Source: Methanoregula sp. (lineage in GTDB: Archaea > Halobacteriota > Methanomicrobia > Methanomicrobiales > Methanospirillaceae). Taken from it: a stretch of DNA of 41,436 nucleotides. Position numbers and translations under genes: made by a program. Below the pieces are notes generated by a model, which saw only the letters and a program-made list of their open reading frames with translations, ran no database searches and was not told the origin of the DNA. The stretch is from NCBI GenBank assembly GCA_026394655.1, contig JAPKXU010000050.1:1-41436 (forward strand), in the 5' to 3' direction. Within the stretch, counting starts at the first letter, position 1; each line of letters opens with the position of its first letter. Below, piece by piece: positions 28,422 to 38,838 of this stretch.

Positions 28422-28712
28422 ATGTCTGATTATTCTGGTGATAGTGCCGGCTTGGGCGAAGTGAATGTGGCTCCTGCGGTCATTGAATATATTGAGAAGC
28501 GGAACTGCGATTTTCGTATATGCACTTCCTGCGGGGGTCCCATCCTCCTGCCGACACGGGTAAAACCCCCGAAAAAAAGCGATGTCCTGTTAAAAGCCGG
28601 CACTCACACTATCTATATCTCGATCCACCAGGCACGGTTTCTCACCGATATCCGTATCGATATGATCCCATTCTTTGAAGATGAAGATCCGGTCAGGAAC
28701 GAACGCGGATGA
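28422..28712 (+). CDS. Hypothetical protein with a CxxC zinc-ribbon-like motif
   Basis: A 96-residue protein with no family I recognise. It has an acidic N-terminus, a CTSCGGPILLPT segment (CxxC), a basic stretch PTRVKPPKKSD, and a C-terminal ISIHQARFLTDIRIDMIPFF that looks like beta strand and helix. Only one CxxC is present, so a full zinc ribbon would need a second protein. Its stop overlaps the archease ATG (ATGA), so it is translated with archease and might take part in RNA ligation or tRNA splicing; this is inferred from context only. ATG 28422 is preferred over the frame opening at 28395. Confidence 0.65.
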   Translation: MSDYSGDSAGLGEVNVAPAVIEYIEKRNCDFRICTSCGGPILLPTRVKPPKKSDVLLKAGTHTIYISIHQARFLTDIRIDMIPFFEDEDPVRNERG

Positions 28713-29116
28713 GTTTTGAAGAATTATCCCATACAGCTGATGTGAAGATCCGGGTACGTTCCCCAACACTTGACGCGCTCTTCTCTGAAGCCTGCATAGC
28801 ACTTATGCAGGTGATGTACGGAAAGGATCGAAAACCGGGTATTTGTAAGAAGATTTCACTCGGTGCCGCCGACACCAAGTCATTACTCTCTGATTTTTTG
28901 TCCGAGATCCTCTTTCTCTCTGAAGTGGAGAGCCTTGTGATCGCCCGTGCGGATGTAAAAATTGAAGGGTCGCACCTTACGGCAATCCTTGCGGGAGAGC
29001 CGTTCGATCCTCTGCGGCATAACCAGGGAACAGAAGTGAAAGGGATCTCCTACTCGGGTATGCTTATTGAGAAGGAGACGAATGGCTACATGCTCGAAAT
29101 CCTCTTTGATGTGTGA
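28709..29116 (+). CDS. Archease, RtcB activator
   Basis: A 135-residue archease (PF01951). Archease speeds guanylylation of the RNA ligase RtcB and allows multiple turnover. Recognised by FEELSHTADVKIRV at the N-terminus (the Asp in HTADV is a metal ligand), DFLSEILFLSEVE in the middle, and KGISYSGMLIEKE...LFDV at the C-terminus. The start overlaps the upstream stop by ATGA. The rtcB gene lies 459 nt downstream on the same strand, so the splicing-ligase pair is kept together, and the window also holds an intron-containing tRNA that would need it. Confidence 0.93.
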   Translation: MSFEELSHTADVKIRVRSPTLDALFSEACIALMQVMYGKDRKPGICKKISLGAADTKSLLSDFLSEILFLSEVESLVIARADVKIEGSHLTAILAGEPFDPLRHNQGTEVKGISYSGMLIEKETNGYMLEILFDV

Positions 29117-29575
29117 TAATGATGAGTCAATGCAGATAATCTCCAGTTGGTACTTCCTTTTTTTGTGATGCAACGGCACACATTTTCAGTTCAACCGGGA
29201 TCTGGTGGATGTTTTATTACCAGATCCAACAACTATGCAGGCTGCCATCACAATGCAATTGATCACAAATCCTCCACCAAAAGCATACCGCATTACTGCC
29301 AGATTTACTCTTTTGTGGGTCAGAACTCCTGCAATCAAAACGTGCGCGCCTGAGAGCACGGGTGCTATGCAGTGCAGCTCAACCGATCTGACCGTTTTTG
29401 CGCTGGTTATTTTACGCTCGTCATGCACCCGTACAGCACTAAAGACTTCAGGAGGCATCCCAGCCCACAGTAAGGATCTTCTTTTTTATCCCCAAAAACT
29501 CACATGAGATACAATTCAATACAATCCAAGAATGAGCACCCGGATTATTTTCGGGAATTGACGGGGAGATTAGGT
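29117..29575. other. 459-nt stretch between archease and rtcB, with open frames on both strands
   Basis: A minus-strand frame (29186-29458, 90 codons) and a plus-strand frame (29205-29507, 100 codons) overlap almost fully. Neither has a recognised domain, a promoter or a Shine-Dalgarno, so I do not call a gene. The minus-strand product would contain one hydrophobic segment (GGGFVINCIVMAACIVVG). CTTTTTTATC (29481-29490) looks like the TATA box of rtcB, giving a leader of about 60 nt. Confidence 0.4.
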
Positions 29576-31009
29576 ATGCTTGAAGGTGTGAACCGGGCAG
29601 GAACAAACGAATGGGAAGTCCCTGTGGGATATGTACCCGGTATGCGGGTACCGGGAAAGATCTTCCTCTCGGAATCCCTTGGTGCCACGCTCGAACCGGG
29701 CGCCGTGCAGCAACTCGCCAACGTCGCAACGATGCCAGGGATTATCAAAAACGCGCTTGCCATGCCGGATATCCACTGGGGCTACGGGTTTCCCATCGGG
29801 GGCGTTGCAGCATTCTCTCTTGACGAGGGCGTGATCTCGCCGGGGGGTGTCGGGTTTGATATCAACTGCGGGGTGCGCTTATTCACCACACCGCTTATCG
29901 CGCATGATATCAAAAAACCAAAGGAACTCATTGAGCAGCTCTTTCATGCGGTTCCAACCGGTGTAGGTGCAAAGAGTTCCCAGAAAATTTCACCGCTGGC
30001 ACTTGACACGATGATGATAAAAGGCGCACGCTGGGCGGTTGATGCGGGATACGGCGTCGAGCGGGATCTGGTACGGTGCGAAGAGGGGGGCGCCATGAAA
30101 CAGGCAGACACCCGTGCAGTCTCACAAAAAGCCCACCAGCGCGGGATGCCACAAGGCGGGACGCTGGGGTCCGGCAACCATTTTCTTGAAATTCAGGTAG
30201 TGAGTGAAATTTTTGATGACCCCGCAGCAAAGGCATTTGGTATTACCGCCGGGCAGTGCTGTTGCATGATCCATTGCGGCTCGCGCGGATTGGGGCACCA
30301 GGTATGCACCGATCACTTAAAAGTGCTCGAAAGCGCGACAAAACGGTATCACATCGAACTGCCTGATCGCCAGCTTGCCTGCGCACCGGTAACCTCTCCG
30401 GAGGGCATGGCATATTTCGGTGCGATGGCTGCATCGGCAAACTATGCGTGGGCAAACCGGCAGATGATCATGCATGCTGCCCGGTTACAACTGGCAAAAA
30501 TCTTCGGGATCGATTACGAAAGTATGCCGCTCGTATACGATGTCGCGCATAACGTCGCGAAGCTGGAGGAGCATACGGTCGATGGAAAGAGGACGAAAGT
30601 CTGCGTGCACCGTAAAGGTGCCACACGGTCATTCGGGGCGGGATCACCGGATCTTCCCCATGAACTCGCACAATACGGGCAACCGGTAATCATTCCCGGC
30701 AGCATGGGGACGTCCTCATTTGTACTGCGCGGCACACAGACAGCGATGGAACGCACATTCGGGAGCACCTGTCACGGTGCGGGGCGCGTGATGAGCAGAT
30801 CGCAGGCAAAAAAGCGCCTCAGCGGAAAAGAGGTAGCAATGGAACTGGAGCGTGCCGGGATCTATGTGCGGGCACCCAACGAAGCCGCCATCGCAGACGA
30901 AGCCCCGGCAGTGTACAAGTCCAGTGACGAAGTAGTGCGGGTGGTGCATGAACTCGGGCTTTCGATGCTTGTTGCACGCCTTTCGCCAATTGGGGTGATC
31001 AAGGGGTGA
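29576..31009 (+). CDS. rtcB: tRNA-splicing ligase RtcB
   Basis: A 477-residue RNA ligase that joins 2',3'-cyclic phosphate and 5'-OH ends with GTP and Mn. Motifs are complete: GFDINCGVR (Asp95, Cys98), GSGNHFLEI (His202), IHCGSRGLGHQ (His233), AHN (His325), and FGSTCHGAGR with the guanylylated His400. Numbering agrees closely with the Pyrococcus enzyme when ATG 29576 is the start. That ATG has GGGGAG 7 nt upstream, while ATG 29504 would lie upstream of the transcript start predicted from the TATA at 29481-29490. No intein is present. It acts with archease on tRNA exon halves. Confidence 0.95.
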   Translation: MLEGVNRAGTNEWEVPVGYVPGMRVPGKIFLSESLGATLEPGAVQQLANVATMPGIIKNALAMPDIHWGYGFPIGGVAAFSLDEGVISPGGVGFDINCGVRLFTTPLIAHDIKKPKELIEQLFHAVPTGVGAKSSQKISPLALDTMMIKGARWAVDAGYGVERDLVRCEEGGAMKQADTRAVSQKAHQRGMPQGGTLGSGNHFLEIQVVSEIFDDPAAKAFGITAGQCCCMIHCGSRGLGHQVCTDHLKVLESATKRYHIELPDRQLACAPVTSPEGMAYFGAMAASANYAWANRQMIMHAARLQLAKIFGIDYESMPLVYDVAHNVAKLEEHTVDGKRTKVCVHRKGATRSFGAGSPDLPHELAQYGQPVIIPGSMGTSSFVLRGTQTAMERTFGSTCHGAGRVMSRSQAKKRLSGKEVAMELERAGIYVRAPNEAAIADEAPAVYKSSDEVVRVVHELGLSMLVARLSPIGVIKG

Positions 31010-31613: not shown

Positions 31614-32036
31614 ATGCACCGCTATACTTTTTCTGCGAGCGCTGATGCAACCGCATTTGAACCCCTCATTCTTGCCGTTCACGAACTGCTTCACCGCCTT
31701 CCGATGACGGCACGATCCGTGGAGAAGCTTGGCTTACGGGTAGAGGATGGCAGGGTAATCGACCGCAATTATGATGGTCCGATCCTTGTCGAAGCGATTG
31801 CATCGAAGCAAATGATCAAGACTACCCCAAAGAGCGGTGCGTATAAAGGAGTGCCCGTCACTGTTGCACCCATTAAAGACGAGGATGGCGAAGTGATCGG
31901 AGCGATCGGGATCGTCGATATCACCGGCATCTTTGATCTTGCCACCCTCATGGAAAACCAGTCAGCCATCTTAAAGCAGGTATGCGGGAAGGATCCCTGC
32001 CCACTGCCTTCTGAACAGACCAATTCGAAACGGTGA
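31614..32036 (+). CDS. DUF2111 family protein
   Basis: A 140-residue protein matching the methanogen DUF2111 family (PF09884): HRLPMTARSVEKLGLRVEDG, VIDRNYDGPILVEAI, PKSGAYKGVPVTVAPIKDEDGEVIGAIGIVD. The last block looks like a PAS/GAF or roadblock-type sensor strand pattern, so a ligand-sensing role is possible. GAGGT 6 nt before ATG 31614 fixes the start. It is 5 nt from birA's ATG with no room for a promoter, so the two are co-transcribed. A role in biotin control is speculative. Confidence 0.8.
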   Translation: MHRYTFSASADATAFEPLILAVHELLHRLPMTARSVEKLGLRVEDGRVIDRNYDGPILVEAIASKQMIKTTPKSGAYKGVPVTVAPIKDEDGEVIGAIGIVDITGIFDLATLMENQSAILKQVCGKDPCPLPSEQTNSKR

Positions 32037-32041
32037 TCGCA

Positions 32042-33022
32042 ATGCCGGACTCTGCATTCAAAGTACTTGAAATTCTCGAACGATCCGACGCGCCCTTATC
32101 TGGGGAGACCATCAGTAACGAACTCGGGATCACCCGATCAGCAGTCTGGAAGCATATCAACGAACTGCGCATGATGGGCTACGATATCTCCTCCTCCCAG
32201 AAAGAGGGGTACCGGCTTACGCGCACGAGCAGCAAACTGCTTCCGTACGAGGTTCATAAGAAGCTCCGGACGCAATTTGTCGGCAAGAAGATGCGCTATC
32301 TTGAGAACACCCCCTCAACGATCTGGGTGGGAAAACAGATCTGTTCTGAAGGAGATGTGGAGAAGATGCACGGGATGGTGATCATTGCTGAAGAGCAGAC
32401 GGGTGGTATCGGCAGGATGGGACGTGCATGGATCTCCCCGAGTGGGGGGATCTGGATCACCGTCGTTTTAAAGCCCCACATCCCTATCGAGCGCATCTTC
32501 ATGATCACGATGGCAGGTTCCGTTGCGCTGGCGCGGGCGATCAGAAAAGAGTTCGATCTTGGGGCATTGATCAAGTGGCCCAATGACATCTTCATCGGCA
32601 ATAAAAAAGTGGCAGGACTCCTCCTTGAGCTCGCGGCTGAATCAGATAACGTCCATTACTGCCTCTTGGGCATGGGCATTGATGTGAATGTTCAGCTCGA
32701 CCAGTTCTCGCCCGCCCTGCAAAAAGAGATCACGTCAATCTCTGCGGAAGTCGGGCACGAGGTTGACCGGGCAGCGTTTTTAGCCCGTATATTAAAAGAG
32801 TTCGAGAACCATTACCTCCTCATCGAGAGCGGAGAGTATGATGCCATTATACGGGAATGGAAGAGTCTCTCCTGCACGCTCGAACGCCGTGTGGATATCA
32901 GGACATTAAAAAACAGTTTCGAAGGCGAAGCCATAGACATCGACGAGTTCGGGGCGCTCATCATACGAAAAGACAACGGCAAACTCGAGCGCGTCATCGC
33001 CGGCGACTGCCATAATCTTTGA
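32042..33022 (+). CDS. birA: Biotin-protein ligase / biotin repressor BirA
   Basis: A 326-residue bifunctional BirA. The N-terminal winged helix (about 1-65: FKVLEILERSDAPLSGETISNELGITRSAVWKHI) binds DNA. The catalytic domain makes biotinyl-AMP and attaches biotin to the carboxylase. It shows EEQTGGIGRMGRAW (the GRGRRG loop with one Arg replaced by Ile), LIKWPNDI with the catalytic Lys, and KVAGLLLE. The target is PycB, encoded in the same locus. ATG 32042 with GGTGAT upstream is preferred over GTG 32033. A BirA-type dyad stands in front of bioY just downstream, so autoregulated biotin control is likely. Confidence 0.93.
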   Translation: MPDSAFKVLEILERSDAPLSGETISNELGITRSAVWKHINELRMMGYDISSSQKEGYRLTRTSSKLLPYEVHKKLRTQFVGKKMRYLENTPSTIWVGKQICSEGDVEKMHGMVIIAEEQTGGIGRMGRAWISPSGGIWITVVLKPHIPIERIFMITMAGSVALARAIRKEFDLGALIKWPNDIFIGNKKVAGLLLELAAESDNVHYCLLGMGIDVNVQLDQFSPALQKEITSISAEVGHEVDRAAFLARILKEFENHYLLIESGEYDAIIREWKSLSCTLERRVDIRTLKNSFEGEAIDIDEFGALIIRKDNGKLERVIAGDCHNL

Positions 33023-33039
33023 TGGGATTACCCTTTTAT

Positions 33040-33069
33040 CGTCAACCAATTAAATTTTAGTGGTTGACG
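33040..33069. promoter_or_regulatory. Probable BirA operator in front of bioY
   Basis: CGTCAACCA (33040-33048) and TGGTTGACG (33061-33069) are a perfect 9-bp inverted repeat with a 12-nt A/T-rich spacer. It runs from the end of the TATA-like TTTTATC (33034-33040) to the base before the ATG at 33070, so it covers the transcription start. Known BirA boxes have the form GTNAACC-N14-16-GGTTNAC; here GTCAACC-N14-GGTTGAC fits. The upstream gene encodes a BirA with a DNA-binding domain. Confidence 0.7.
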
Positions 33070-33579
33070 ATGTTTGGCGATCTCCGGCGATCTCGAATCG
33101 TGGCATATTCTGCAGCTTTTGTCGCACTTATCACGATGGGCAGCTGGGTCTCGATCCCGTTTTTTCCGGTCCCCATCACTCTCCAGACACTGTTTGTCCT
33201 CCTCGCGGGTGCCGTCATGAAGCGTTACGGCGTGATCCCGGTTACCCTGTATGTCCTCTTTGGTGCCATTGGCTTACCCGTGTTTCACAACGGTATTGCA
33301 GGAATAGGAGTGCTGCTGGGACCGACCGGCGGCTACCTTATCGGTTTTATTCCGGCTGCGCTTATTGTTGGTTTCGCATATGAACGGCAATCACATCTTA
33401 TGCACATTTTTGGACTTGCCACCGGTTCAATGGTCATCCTCATTTCCGGTGCGTCATGGCTTTGCTACTCCACGGGCATGCTGCCGGTTGCCGCACTCAT
33501 TGGCGGTGTGTTGATCTTCCTTCCCGGTGATGCGGTAAAATCTGGTGCCGCGTATCTCATCGCCAAACGGTTGCCATGA
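33070..33579 (+). CDS. bioY: Biotin-specific ECF transporter S component BioY
   Basis: A 169-residue membrane protein with about six helices and the BioY family pattern: FFPVPITLQTLFVLLAGA near the N-terminus, and GVLLGPTGGYLIGF in the middle. It captures biotin at the membrane and works with the energy-coupling module encoded next to it. ATG 33070 follows the operator directly; a TTG at 33064 is unlikely. TTTTATC about 33 nt upstream suggests a leaderless transcript. The next gene overlaps by ATGA. Confidence 0.93.
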   Translation: MFGDLRRSRIVAYSAAFVALITMGSWVSIPFFPVPITLQTLFVLLAGAVMKRYGVIPVTLYVLFGAIGLPVFHNGIAGIGVLLGPTGGYLIGFIPAALIVGFAYERQSHLMHIFGLATGSMVILISGASWLCYSTGMLPVAALIGGVLIFLPGDAVKSGAAYLIAKRLP

Positions 33580-34247
33580 TTACTATACACGCGCTCCGGT
33601 TTCGTTCCCTTGCTATCGATACGCTCACGATTCCCCCCGGCATCACATCTGTTATCGGACCAAATGGCAGCGGCAAAACGACACTGCTCCGGCTCTGTGC
33701 CGGGATCGTGGTTCCGGATGCGGGGCAGATCATGATCGATGGCATCCCACCGCGCGAGACCGAAACCGGATGGGTAAACGAGTTCCCGGACAAAAATATT
33801 CTCTTCCCGCGCGTGTACGATGAATGTGCATCTGCGCTCCGGTTCCGTCACTCGCCCTGCCATGAAACAGATGAGTCGGTTCACCGGATTGTGGATACGA
33901 TGAAGATCAGGTACCTGCTTTCACGGGAGATGCGTGTGATCTCCGGAGGAGAGAAGGTGCTGGTGGCTCTTGCTGCTGCGCTTGTCACTTCACCACGATT
34001 GCTCATTCTTGATGAGTATGACTCTCATCTTGACACCACGTGCTGCGACCACATAGAAAATGTCATACGGAACTCAGGGGCATCCTACGTAATCCGCTGC
34101 ACCCAGCAAATGGAGATCGCAGCCCAAAGCGATCACCTGCTCTTTCTTGAAAATGGGCGTGTGAAATATGCAGGGACACCCGCTGAAGTCTTTTTGTCAT
34201 TATCCGGAACTGCATTTTATCCCCTCTCGTGGCGGTGCGGCATATGA
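33576..34247 (+). CDS. ECF transporter ATPase 1 (BioM/EcfA-like), with altered Q- and H-loops
   Basis: A 223-residue ABC ATPase of the biotin energy-coupling module. Walker A GPNGSGKT (28-35), signature ISGGEK (122-127) and Walker B LLILDEYD (142-149) are present. The Q-loop position is Glu69 (NEFPD), not Gln. The switch-loop His is Gln177 (CTQQME). Both changes lie in the same subunit. Its own ATP site should be weak or unable to hydrolyse, while its signature motif can still serve the partner's site. It starts by an ATGA overlap with bioY and ends in another with the second ATPase. Confidence 0.9.
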   Translation: MITIHALRFRSLAIDTLTIPPGITSVIGPNGSGKTTLLRLCAGIVVPDAGQIMIDGIPPRETETGWVNEFPDKNILFPRVYDECASALRFRHSPCHETDESVHRIVDTMKIRYLLSREMRVISGGEKVLVALAAALVTSPRLLILDEYDSHLDTTCCDHIENVIRNSGASYVIRCTQQMEIAAQSDHLLFLENGRVKYAGTPAEVFLSLSGTAFYPLSWRCGI

Positions 34248-34942
34248 AGATAGTGCTCAACCATCTTCATGTCCAGCGTGGCGCATGGTCTCTTGTCGCC
34301 CACGGGACATTTGAGGAGGGGATTCACCTTGTCAGCGGAGCAGTCGGGAGCGGGAAGTCCACTCTTGCTCTTGCTATGGCAGGGCTACTGACTCCAGTTC
34401 GGGGAACGGTGGAGCGGGAAGATACAAAAAGCCTGATGCTCTCAACGCAATTTCCCGAATTCCATATCACCGGACTTTCGGTTGCTGACGAATGTGGATC
34501 ATGGGGGCTTGATTTTAAGACGGTAATACGGTCTGCCAAGCTGGAGATTGACGGCGATGCGTCACCACTTACCCTGAGCCGGGGGGAACTGAAACGTCTT
34601 CACCTTGCCTGTGTCCTCGCCCGGCAATATGACCTGCTACTCCTGGATGAACCGTTCAGCTCCCTTGACTGTACAGAGAAAGAACGGTTATGCCGGGAAC
34701 TTTCCGGGCGGGATTCGGGAATCACGATCATCTTCACTCATGAGCAGAGCATATTCCCGCGCGTGGATCAACTCTGGGAAATCACCGGTGGAGAACTGTG
34801 TGCACTCGGCAGGACGCCGGAATCTCTCACGCGGTGGCAGCATGCACCCGTACTCGTAAAAAAACTCATCGCTGCGGGAAGATGCCCGCGTAATCTCACA
34901 CCAGGGGATATCCGGGAGGCGGCATGCAGGACGCACGAATAA
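34244..34942 (+). CDS. ECF transporter ATPase 2 (EcfA'-like)
   Basis: A 232-residue ABC ATPase with a full motif set: Walker A GAVGSGKS (32-39), Q-loop Gln69, signature LSRGE (111-115), Walker B LLLLDEP (131-137, Asp135, Glu136), and switch His166 (FTHEQ). It pairs with ATPase 1 to drive the biotin importer. ATG 34244 overlaps the upstream stop by ATGA. A C-terminal extension (about 190-232) is predicted helical. In the presumed heterodimer it carries the catalytic site. Confidence 0.9.
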   Translation: MKIVLNHLHVQRGAWSLVAHGTFEEGIHLVSGAVGSGKSTLALAMAGLLTPVRGTVEREDTKSLMLSTQFPEFHITGLSVADECGSWGLDFKTVIRSAKLEIDGDASPLTLSRGELKRLHLACVLARQYDLLLLDEPFSSLDCTEKERLCRELSGRDSGITIIFTHEQSIFPRVDQLWEITGGELCALGRTPESLTRWQHAPVLVKKLIAAGRCPRNLTPGDIREAACRTHE

Positions 34943-35577
34943 GACTTGCGAGTGCTGCCCTCGTCTCGGTTGCTGCATTTACCAGTACCTGGGGTGCGCT
35001 TGCGGTCTTTCTCTGGTGGCTTGTCTTTTCGCCGCGCTTGCAACGGATGAAAAATCGCATGGTGATACTTGGGATGATCGTCCTCATCAGTGCAGTCGCG
35101 CTCCTGATCTGGATTTCCGGTGGGGATGGGTTCTCGTATTTTCTCCGAATGGGGGTTATAGTGCTTATCGGTTCATGGTTGTATACCGAACAGGAACCCG
35201 GAGATTTCCTCTCAGTCTCGGTATGGGCGCTCGGGAGACGAACCGGGTTTGATCTGGGGATGATCGGGGAATGCGCGATGCAGCACGCAGAATCGCTCTC
35301 CCGTGATCTGGTGCGAATTCAGATCGCGACAAAACTAAAAGGCGAAGCGTGGGGAGTAAGAAACCTTGTACCGGCTGGATTCATCCTGATCCACGATGCG
35401 CTGGTGCGGGCTGACGATATGTCCGAGATCTTAGCGGTAAGAGGGTACCATAAAGGTGGTGTTTTGTGTCCTGGATTTCAAAGATGCCATTGGGATTGGG
35501 TTGCGGGGATCTGTGCAATCTGCGCCTTTTTTTTCGCGATCATACCAGTTAGTGAATTTTTTATACTTTACCAGTGA
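34924..35577 (+). CDS. ECF transporter transmembrane component, EcfT/BioN-like
   Basis: A 217-residue protein with about five hydrophobic helices (the last FAIIPVSEFFILYQ) and a long cytoplasmic loop holding EILAVRG (Ala171-Val-Arg-Gly174), the A-x-R-G motif that couples EcfT to the ATPases. Only one such motif is seen, where many EcfT proteins have two. It links the ATPases to BioY. GGGAGG just before ATG 34924 fixes the start, which lies 19 nt inside the ATPase 2 gene. Sequence divergence makes BioN versus a general EcfT undecidable, but the neighbourhood says biotin. Confidence 0.82.
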   Translation: MQDARIRLASAALVSVAAFTSTWGALAVFLWWLVFSPRLQRMKNRMVILGMIVLISAVALLIWISGGDGFSYFLRMGVIVLIGSWLYTEQEPGDFLSVSVWALGRRTGFDLGMIGECAMQHAESLSRDLVRIQIATKLKGEAWGVRNLVPAGFILIHDALVRADDMSEILAVRGYHKGGVLCPGFQRCHWDWVAGICAICAFFFAIIPVSEFFILYQ

Positions 35578-35593: not shown

Positions 35594-37366
35594 ATGTTCT
35601 ATTACGGAAGCTCTGAGGTTTCCACAATGCGTTCTCGCGGTTCCCATAAAATCCATATTACTGATACTACACTCCGGGATGCCCATCAGTCCCTTATTGC
35701 CACACGCCTCCGTACCGAAGATATGATCCCGCTTGCACGCGAGATCGATAGCTGCGGGTTTTTCTCGGTTGAGGCATGGGGCGGCGCCACGTTCGACACG
35801 TGTATCCGGTTTTTGAACGATGACCCATGGGACCGGCTCCGCTCCCTAAAAGCGGAACTCTCCCACACACCAATCCAGATGCTCCTCCGGGGGCAGAACC
35901 TTGTCGGTTACCGGCATTATCCTGATGACGTGGTCGATCATTTTGTTTCAGCCGCGCACAAGAACGGGGTAGATGTCTTCCGGGTCTTTGATGCCCTCAA
36001 TGATATCCGGAACATGAAACGCTCGATGGAACAGGTAAAAAAGACAGGGGCACACCTGCAGGGCGCCATCTCGTATACCACCAGTCCCGCACATACGACG
36101 AAGACATTCATCGAATTGGCAAAGGAGCTCCACGCGCTTGACTGCGACTCGATCTGTATCAAGGACATGGCGGGACTGATCATGCCGGAAGCGACCCGCG
36201 AACTGATCACCGGCATCAAGGATGCAGTCGATACAAAAGTCTGCCTGCACAGCCACTCGACGAGCGGGATCGCCCCCATGAGTTACCAGACTGCGATTGA
36301 GGCGGGCGTCGATATCCTTGACACTGCGATGTCCCCATTCTCCATGGGGACGTCCCAGCCACCAACCGAAAGTGTCGTTGCCACCCTCATCGGGACGCCC
36401 CAAGATACAGGCATTGATCTCATCCGGCTCCGTGCAGTCCGGAACATCTGCATCCAGATCCGCGAGAAGTACGCCGGGCTCTTAAATCCAATATCAGAAC
36501 GGGTTGACAGTGACGTGCTCATCTACCAGTTGCCGGGCGGGATGATCTCAAACCTCGTCTCACAATTACAGGAGCAGGATGCACTCAACCGGATGGATGA
36601 AGTGTTCGCGGAGATCCCGCGCGTGAGAAAGGATCTTGGCTATCCGCCTCTCGTCACCCCAACGAGCCAGATTGTCGGGACACAGGCTGTGCTAAATGTC
36701 CTTGTCAACGGGCAGAGGTACCGGAATGTCACCAAAGAAGTGAAAGATTACGTCCGGGGCTTGTACGGCAAGTCACCGGCACCGGTCAGTGACGAGATCA
36801 GACAACTGATCATCGGAGATGAAGAGGTAATCACCGTCCGCCCGGCTGATCTCCTTGAACCTGCCTACGAGAAGATGAAGGCAGAGGCGGAGAAGGCAAA
36901 CCTCGTAAAAAGAGAGGAGGATATCCTCACCTACATCCTCTATCCTGCAATCGCTCCCTCATTCTTAAAAGGAGAACGGACGATCGAAGAGATCCCAAAA
37001 AAGCAGACCACGGGAAAACCAGCGACCGGTATCCCGGACCAGATGGAGGTCGAGGTTGACGGGGAGATCTTTTCAGTACGGATCGTCTCTGTTGGCGGGA
37101 GCAAAGTTGAAGTTGCAGGAGTCACCCCTCATAAAGCACCACGGGGTGAGATCGCCGGGGGCATCCGCAGCAACATGCAGGGCATGGTACTCCAGGTGAT
37201 CACGAGCCGGGGAGCAACCGTGAAAAAAGGAGATACGCTCCTTGTACTCGAAGCGATGAAGATGGAGAACCCCATCCACAGCCCGATAGACGGCAAAGTC
37301 ACGGAAATTTTTGTTGATGCCGGCGATGTCGTCCAGAACGGCGATGTCCTGCTGGTGGTGCAATGA
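35594..37366 (+). CDS. pycB: Pyruvate carboxylase subunit B (carboxyltransferase and biotin carrier)
   Basis: A 590-residue subunit of the archaeal two-subunit pyruvate carboxylase. It turns pyruvate, bicarbonate and ATP into oxaloacetate, which feeds the incomplete reductive TCA branch for amino acids. The N-terminal TIM barrel carries DTTLRDAHQS (24-33), the metal/pyruvate site. The conserved region follows, and the C-terminal biotinyl domain has EAMKMEN with biotin on Lys556. The GAGAGG before ATG 35594 supports this start. The next gene (pycA) overlaps by ATGA. BirA, encoded upstream, would attach the biotin. The 5' end overlaps a promoter with direct repeats. Confidence 0.95.
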   Translation: MFYYGSSEVSTMRSRGSHKIHITDTTLRDAHQSLIATRLRTEDMIPLAREIDSCGFFSVEAWGGATFDTCIRFLNDDPWDRLRSLKAELSHTPIQMLLRGQNLVGYRHYPDDVVDHFVSAAHKNGVDVFRVFDALNDIRNMKRSMEQVKKTGAHLQGAISYTTSPAHTTKTFIELAKELHALDCDSICIKDMAGLIMPEATRELITGIKDAVDTKVCLHSHSTSGIAPMSYQTAIEAGVDILDTAMSPFSMGTSQPPTESVVATLIGTPQDTGIDLIRLRAVRNICIQIREKYAGLLNPISERVDSDVLIYQLPGGMISNLVSQLQEQDALNRMDEVFAEIPRVRKDLGYPPLVTPTSQIVGTQAVLNVLVNGQRYRNVTKEVKDYVRGLYGKSPAPVSDEIRQLIIGDEEVITVRPADLLEPAYEKMKAEAEKANLVKREEDILTYILYPAIAPSFLKGERTIEEIPKKQTTGKPATGIPDQMEVEVDGEIFSVRIVSVGGSKVEVAGVTPHKAPRGEIAGGIRSNMQGMVLQVITSRGATVKKGDTLLVLEAMKMENPIHSPIDGKVTEIFVDAGDVVQNGDVLLVVQ

Positions 37367-38838
37367 AATTTTTTGACAAGATCCTGATCGCCAACCGTGG
37401 TGAGATCGCCATCCGGGTCATGCGAGCCTGCCGTGAGCTCGATATTGAAACAGTTGCCATTTACTCGTCTGCTGATACAAACTCGCTCCATGTCAAATAT
37501 GCCGACGAGGCATTCCCGGTGGGGGAGGCACATCCCTCCAAAAGTTACCTCAACATAGAGCGGATCATTGACATCGCCAAAAAGAGCGGTGCGGAAGCGG
37601 TGCATCCCGGCTACGGTTTTTTAGCGGAGAATTACCGTTTCGCCAAAATCTGCCAAGATGAGGGCGTGATCTTCATCGGTCCCCGGTCAAAGACCATACA
37701 GGCGATGGGATCGAAGATCGATAGCAAGAAGATGATGAAAGACGCCGGTGTCCCCGTGCTTCCCGGTACTGATGATGGTGTCCGGGATATCGAAGACGCA
37801 AAAAAGGTTGCTTTTGAGATCGGTTACCCGGTGATTGTGAAAGCCAGTGCCGGTGGTGGCGGCATAGGCATGCAGATCGTCAATGATGAGCCCGCACTCG
37901 AAGAGGCAATCACGGCAAGCATGCGGATTGCAAAGTCCGCGTTTGGAGATGCGACAGTTTTTATCGAGAAGTATCTCGTGAAGCCCCGGCATATCGAGTT
38001 TCAGGTATTGGCAGATGAACACGGGCATGCGGTACATCTCTATGACCGCGAGTGTTCGATCCAGCGCCGGCACCAGAAACTGGTCGAGGAAGCCCCCTCT
38101 CCGATCATGACGCCGGAACTGCGCGAGCGGATGTCAAGTGCCGCACTCAAGGTGGCTGAAGCGTCTGCCTATTCTAATGCCGGGTCTGTAGAGTTCCTCT
38201 ACAGCAATGACAATTTTTACTTCATGGAAATGAATACCCGTTTGCAGGTAGAGCATACCATCACAGAGTTTATCACGGGGATCGATCTCGTACGGCAGCA
38301 GATTGCGATAGCCGCCGGGGAGTCGCTTCCGTTCGATCAATCGGACATCTCGATCCGGGGGCATGCGATCGAGTGCCGGATCAATGCGGAAGACCCGTTC
38401 AATAATTTCAGCGCGGACCCCGGTAAGATCAGCCGTTATCGTTCACCGGGTGGACCGGGCATCCGGGTCGACAGCGGGATACACATGGGATACATGATCC
38501 CCCCCAATTACGACTCGATGATAGCAAAACTCTGCGCCTGGGACAGTACCCGAATCGAGGCGATCAAACGGATGCGGCGCGCGATATCGGAATACATCAT
38601 TCTCGGTGTCCAAACCACCCTCCCCCTCCACTATGCGATCATGAACAGCCCCCAATTTATTGAAGGGAATACGCATACGCACTTTTTGCAGGAAGAGCAC
38701 ATCATAAAGACGCTCGAACGCTACAAGCGGGATGAAGAGGCGCGCATGCAGACACTTGCGGGATCGTTCGGGCAGGGCAAGAAAGTAGCGGCGATCACGG
38801 CAGCAGTGAACGTGTATCTCCAGCATCAGAAAGAATAA
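37363..38838 (+). CDS. pycA: Pyruvate carboxylase subunit A (biotin carboxylase)
   Basis: A 491-residue ATP-grasp biotin carboxylase, which carboxylates the biotin on PycB. It has the N-terminal FDKILIANRGEIAIRVMRA, VHPGYGFLAEN, the glycine-rich ATP loop KASAGGGGIGM, the catalytic RECSIQRRHQK-like region (YDRECSIQRRHQ), and the EMNTRLQVEHTITE segment with the active-site Glu and Arg. It overlaps pycB by ATGA. The C-terminal 45 residues are a charged helical tail. This is the last gene of the biotin locus; the tRNA follows in 67 nt. Confidence 0.96.
   Translation: MKFFDKILIANRGEIAIRVMRACRELDIETVAIYSSADTNSLHVKYADEAFPVGEAHPSKSYLNIERIIDIAKKSGAEAVHPGYGFLAENYRFAKICQDEGVIFIGPRSKTIQAMGSKIDSKKMMKDAGVPVLPGTDDGVRDIEDAKKVAFEIGYPVIVKASAGGGGIGMQIVNDEPALEEAITASMRIAKSAFGDATVFIEKYLVKPRHIEFQVLADEHGHAVHLYDRECSIQRRHQKLVEEAPSPIMTPELRERMSSAALKVAEASAYSNAGSVEFLYSNDNFYFMEMNTRLQVEHTITEFITGIDLVRQQIAIAAGESLPFDQSDISIRGHAIECRINAEDPFNNFSADPGKISRYRSPGGPGIRVDSGIHMGYMIPPNYDSMIAKLCAWDSTRIEAIKRMRRAISEYIILGVQTTLPLHYAIMNSPQFIEGNTHTHFLQEEHIIKTLERYKRDEEARMQTLAGSFGQGKKVAAITAAVNVYLQHQKE

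Follow-up and report, generated by a model that had tools for sequence, protein, structure and literature searches.

A predicted BirA operator on the start of bioY in Methanoregula and a second conserved box location at ppcA in Methanomicrobiales

Does the inverted repeat on the start of bioY in a Methanoregula genome serve as the operator of the biotin protein ligase BirA encoded just upstream? We examined this in a 41,436-nt contig, analyzed over its whole length and hereafter called the window, and in a sample of 150 genomes of the order Methanomicrobiales. An earlier note on this DNA had reported a 9-bp perfect inverted repeat at 33040-33069; the repeat is present, but its arms are perfect over 11 bp (33038-33048 and 33061-33071, 12 bp apart), and that interval takes in just 8 bp of each. 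The predicted operator is thus ATCGTCAACCA-N12-TGGTTGACGAT (33038-33071, no strand assigned). Its core, GTCAACC-N14-GGTTGAC, which the note had likened to known BirA boxes, lies at 33041-33068, has the form of the published consensus (PMC545781) and occurs a single time in the genome assembly (2.26 Mb, 82% complete). The right arm reaches into the start codon of bioY (ATG, 33070), and most of the dyad falls within the 47-bp gap between birA and bioY. A candidate TATA element, TTTTAT (33034-33039, + strand), touches the operator to the left of the core; its promoter role is a prediction, as are a leaderless bioY and the position of its transcription start. Among 78 aligned boxes, a T-rich tract is kept at the place of TTTTAT (0.7-1.2 bits at the best positions).

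A dinucleotide-shuffled window holds 0.87 inverted repeats by expectation when arms must reach 10 bp or more and gaps span 4-20 bp; the dyad alone is therefore not significant, and a claim of significance from the dyad alone was dropped; its significance is in exact form, place and conservation. Searches for additional sites in the same genome with up to 3 mismatches returned noise (196 matches, versus 160 for a reversed control). The sole 1-mismatch match (C242:5355) was likewise set aside as noise, since it sits within a 687-codon open frame.

The gene preceding the dyad, birA (32042-33022, + strand, with an alternative GTG start at 32033), encodes a biotin protein ligase with HTH_11 (2.6e-15), BPL_LplA_LipB (8.2e-19) and BPL_C (1.6e-10) domains. 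HTH_11 spans BirA residues 7-59, which bears out the winged helix ascribed to a BirA just upstream, and the recognition helix reads GITRSAVWKHINEL. With an N-terminal winged helix, a ligase domain and a C-terminal domain all found, the protein belongs to the Group II biotin protein ligases; it matches S. aureus and E. coli BirA over near full length, with S. aureus BirA as its closest solved relative (8.3e-40). The translation contains TGGIGRMGRAW (a GRGRRG-like loop) and IKWPNDIF (KWPND), which we take to be the counterparts of the E. coli BirA ligase motifs. A DUF2111 gene (31614-32036) lies directly before birA, overlapping the alternative GTG start, and the two are possibly co-transcribed.

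Beyond the operator, the first gene is bioY (33070-33579, + strand), whose identity as the biotin-binding importer subunit was confirmed by Pfam (PF02632, 9.9e-38) and whose product is 82% identical to BioY of Methanoregula sp. STB_182. It is followed on the same strand by two ABC ATPase genes (PF00005), ecfA (33576-34247, overlapping the bioY end) and ecfA' (34244-34942), and by a probable ecfT for the transmembrane subunit (34924-35577), so assigned from its hydrophobic product and its place between ecfA' and pycB, as it has no Pfam match. Domain searches identified the last two genes as pycB (35594-37366), a pyruvate carboxylase subunit with a Biotin_lipoyl domain, and pycA (37363-38838), the biotin carboxylase subunit of the same enzyme. 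All six genes point in the same direction and overlap or are separated by a 16-bp gap, and the pyc genes are presumably part of the bioY operon; across the order, 126/139 genomes in which both were found have a PYC_OADA domain on the bioY strand, 2.8-4.9 kb 3′ of that gene. The Biotin_lipoyl domain of PycB is the only one found in the assembly (82% complete). Because bioB fell below the cut-off in the window genome, as in 145/150 genomes of the order altogether, import is probably its only source of biotin. Elsewhere in the window, archease-like and RtcB RNA ligase-like open reading frames, judged by eye, stand side by side (28709-31009).

The earlier note had proposed looking for the dyad at the bioY promoters of relatives, and its reading was not refuted: a box stands at the matching position in 109/141 bioY loci of the order, spanning 4/6 families, when sites with up to 2 mismatches, or of the TTGTwwAC type carried by one genus, are admitted. 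By family, the counts are 30/33 (f1), 27/28 (f2), 31/32 (f5) and 21/26 (f6), against 0/10 (f3) and 0/12 (f4). The exact pattern, GTYAACC-N13..16-GGTTRAC, was found in 89/150 genomes, compared with 6/150 for the reversed pattern used as control. BirA boxes are expected at biotin promoters and rarely elsewhere, and the distribution is of this kind: the window genome has one exact box, at bioY, and 105 of the 110 exact boxes in the order lie at bioY (88, spread over 86 genomes, two of which have tandem boxes) or at ppcA (17). Among the five located elsewhere, the one examined (G022) is in a coding region.

Alignment of 78 distinct N14 boxes shows no variation at 10 of the 14 core positions and hardly any at the remaining four; the arms read GTYAACC with near-invariance, and the spacer is variable and A/T-rich. 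Spacing is N14 in 79 boxes and N15 in 20. A fixed core around a variable spacer fits contact of a symmetric dimer with a DNA operator. Outside the order, bioY stands directly at the box in 25/36 box loci examined, and bioY loci from further families of the phylum have the box as well; the predicted bioY operator is on this account old and widespread.

Several individual loci depart from the common arrangement. Methanoculleus loci L046/L158 (G010), L192 (G076) and L047 show a tandem pair of boxes upstream of bioY, spaced 40 bp apart, and the second one looks degenerate in L047. In genus g24, five genomes possess a true bioB, which is divergent from bioY; the interval separating the two genes holds an E. 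coli-like TTGTwwACC box (L240, L244, L245, L246, L248). Finally, a record titled Spirochaetia bacterium UBA5368 (L044) has a Methanofollis-type BioY locus whose upstream sequence does not differ from that of L045, and is probably misbinned or mislabeled.

The box recurs in one other place, ahead of a gene encoding a protein that starts ...MSTQHPDN..., namely PpcA (PF14010), the archaeal-type phosphoenolpyruvate (PEP) carboxylase. The distance from the first core position to the conserved MSTQ codon is 73-115 nt in nearly all cases. Both promoters were readable in 41 ppcA genomes; with 0-2 mismatches allowed, 27 of these have the box at both ppcA and bioY (box loci L253-L258, L260, L261 and L264-L270; ppcA loci L275-L304, L329 and L330), 14 at neither, and none at only one. 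The 14 are made up of the f4 clade together with G047, G136 and G149, which amounts to at least 3 changes on the tree. PF14010 was not detected in the window genome (assembly 82% complete); four genomes of the same genus (G064, G085, G093, G140) carry ppcA together with its box. Outside the order no ppcA box was seen, the best matches at 7 ppcA loci of other families having 3-5 mismatches, and in our comparison the extension to ppcA thus appears confined to Methanomicrobiales. The co-occurrence of the ppcA and bioY boxes suggests a switch from pyruvate carboxylase to PEP carboxylase under biotin scarcity. BirA would then probably act as a carbon-metabolism switch in Methanomicrobiales, with biotin shortage turning on both BioY-mediated uptake and a PpcA route to oxaloacetate that replaces pyruvate carboxylase. 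No link between BirA and PEP carboxylase was found in the open literature searched, an absence that is no proof of novelty; according to a recent review, no allosteric activators are known for PEP carboxylases of the archaeal type (PMC8100219). If true, the ppcA extension would account for the presence of two enzymes that form oxaloacetate in some methanogens, and for the choice made between them.

The box is usually adjoined by birA. Across 116 genomes with a complete BioY and a complete, adjacent BirA, an [VI]WK motif in the recognition helix is kept in 92/92 box-bearing genomes; among the box-less ones it is kept in only 4/24 and absent in 20/24. The set lacking both motif and box consists of family f4 (Methanofollis-like; loci L005-L009, L011-L013, L016, L018, L021), in which the recognition helix reads, for example, IPGSSVARHIKSL; family f3 (L014, L028, L144, L148, L189, L197, L202, L205), in which three box-less genomes have no HTH altogether; and the single genome G123, in which box and motif are both gone within a genus that otherwise has both. 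In f4 and f3 the winged helix has drifted or been lost alongside all boxes, a case of regulator decay within one order. These families offer a natural experiment, in that those that lost the box are also without a DNA-reading BirA helix. Mapped onto the tree, box state switches 6 times and helix state 3 times, and independent box-helix pairs show no disagreement in direction; they are too few for significance, and phylogenetic significance of the co-loss is not claimed. Because independent contrasts are few, the association is strong as a pattern and weak as statistics. Four genomes have an intact-looking BirA helix and no bioY box (G047, L184; G077, L200; G136, L177; G149, L147), nor do they have a box at ppcA where that gene is present; in these the operator may have moved or changed. 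A search for an operator moved upstream of birA in box-less genomes gave 3-6 mismatches at best, none convincing.

The dyad might instead act as RNA. In a transcript of the region it can form a strong stem (-19.6 kcal/mol, z -3.6), its right arm extends to the ATG, and outer flank pairs covary (position -1/28 is paired in 70/78 boxes, versus 42 expected), all of which would suit a hairpin over the bioY start codon that controls translation or attenuates read-through from birA. Pairing alone, however, would not demand near-invariant letters in the core arms, and symmetric flanks are also explained by two-fold reading by a protein. Furthermore, because the ppcA box is farther upstream, away from the start codon, masking of that codon cannot be the shared role of the box, and box presence tracks the BirA helix. 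We consider an RNA hairpin very improbable.

If the dyad is a DNA operator, a transcription factor other than BirA might read it. BirA binding to the box is a prediction from sequence, and the four box-less genomes with a normal BirA helix would be at ease with a different factor. Set against this are the match to the BirA consensus, the adjacency of birA, the restriction of boxes to bioY and ppcA, and the loss of the BirA recognition helix solely in box-less genomes, which together make another reader very unlikely.

The best explanation, and one in which we have high confidence, is that the dyad serves as operator for the product of the preceding birA gene, which would repress the bioY gene run in a biotin-dependent manner. 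The reading of the dyad offered in the earlier note, as a BirA operator on bioY, is in this sense supported, with binding, repression and promoter positions all predicted. With ample biotin and PycB already biotinylated, BirA would retain biotinyl-5′-AMP and dimerize, and the dimer would bind the box via its winged helices. Bound BirA would cover the promoter-to-start region, block assembly of TBP, TFB and RNA polymerase on a promoter with a very short leader, and so repress bioY and the co-oriented ecfA-ecfA'-ecfT-pycB-pycA. Under biotin shortage, or when apo-PycB draws off biotinyl-AMP, BirA would be released and import turned on; because the gene for the only visible substrate of BirA lies in the bioY gene run itself, the sensor would report the charging of pyruvate carboxylase. 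In ppcA-bearing relatives, BirA release would also start PEP carboxylase, yielding oxaloacetate without biotin. Two points count against this explanation: transcription running on from birA into bioY would escape a block at the promoter, and the four genomes named above combine a normal-looking BirA helix with a bioY that has no box. The outcome is an order-wide, directly testable prediction of vitamin-controlled transcription in methanogens.

The direction of regulation is not readable from a sequence, so BirA might instead bind the dyad as an activator, or act independently of biotin. Yet the box overlaps the gene start, where bound protein would obstruct initiation, characterized BirA proteins are repressors, and B. 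subtilis BirA needs biotin and ATP to bind its operators (PMC4016012), all of which leave little room for such a role. A chance inverted repeat, although about one of this length is expected per window, is a negligible prospect given an identical sequence at an identical place in 109/141 loci and the 6/150 genomes with the reversed pattern against 89/150 with the box.

Bacteria are known to carry BirA operators ahead of bioY-type genes, and Rodionov, Mironov and Gelfand reportedly predicted the BirA signal of archaea in 2002, with the same regulator and the same kind of signal. Because archaeal BirA sites were predicted earlier, the window site belongs to a known kind and is a further case of it; the ppcA target is the unexpected part. 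In B. subtilis, yuiG is a bioY homologue. There, BirA operators lie at the bio operon, yuiG and yhfU, so that a box likewise precedes a bioY-type gene, and both the B. subtilis and the window BirA are Group II ligases with an N-terminal DNA-binding domain (PMC4016012). Binding in B. subtilis was shown by gel shift at bacterial promoters, whereas the window operator is archaeal and predicted from sequence. Against the published BirA consensus, TTGTAAACC-[N14/15]-GGTTTACAA (PMC545781), the window box, TCGTCAACC-N14-GGTTGACGA, departs solely at positions that are also variable in published sites. Boxes of Geobacter and Desulfuromonas, exemplified by the Geobacter site TTGTcAACC-N14-GGTTgACgA, resemble it in the GTcAACC-N14-GGTTgAC core and in numbering 1-2 sites per genome before biotin genes (PMC545781); they precede biosynthesis genes at bacterial promoters, whereas the window box sits where an archaeal import operon starts. 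The BirA regulon of Desulfovibrionales has likewise widened beyond biotin genes, to fabF, fabH and acpP in the pathway of acetyl-CoA carboxylase (PMC5343134), whereas the predicted widening in Methanomicrobiales would take in a biotin-independent enzyme that shares its product with pyruvate carboxylase.
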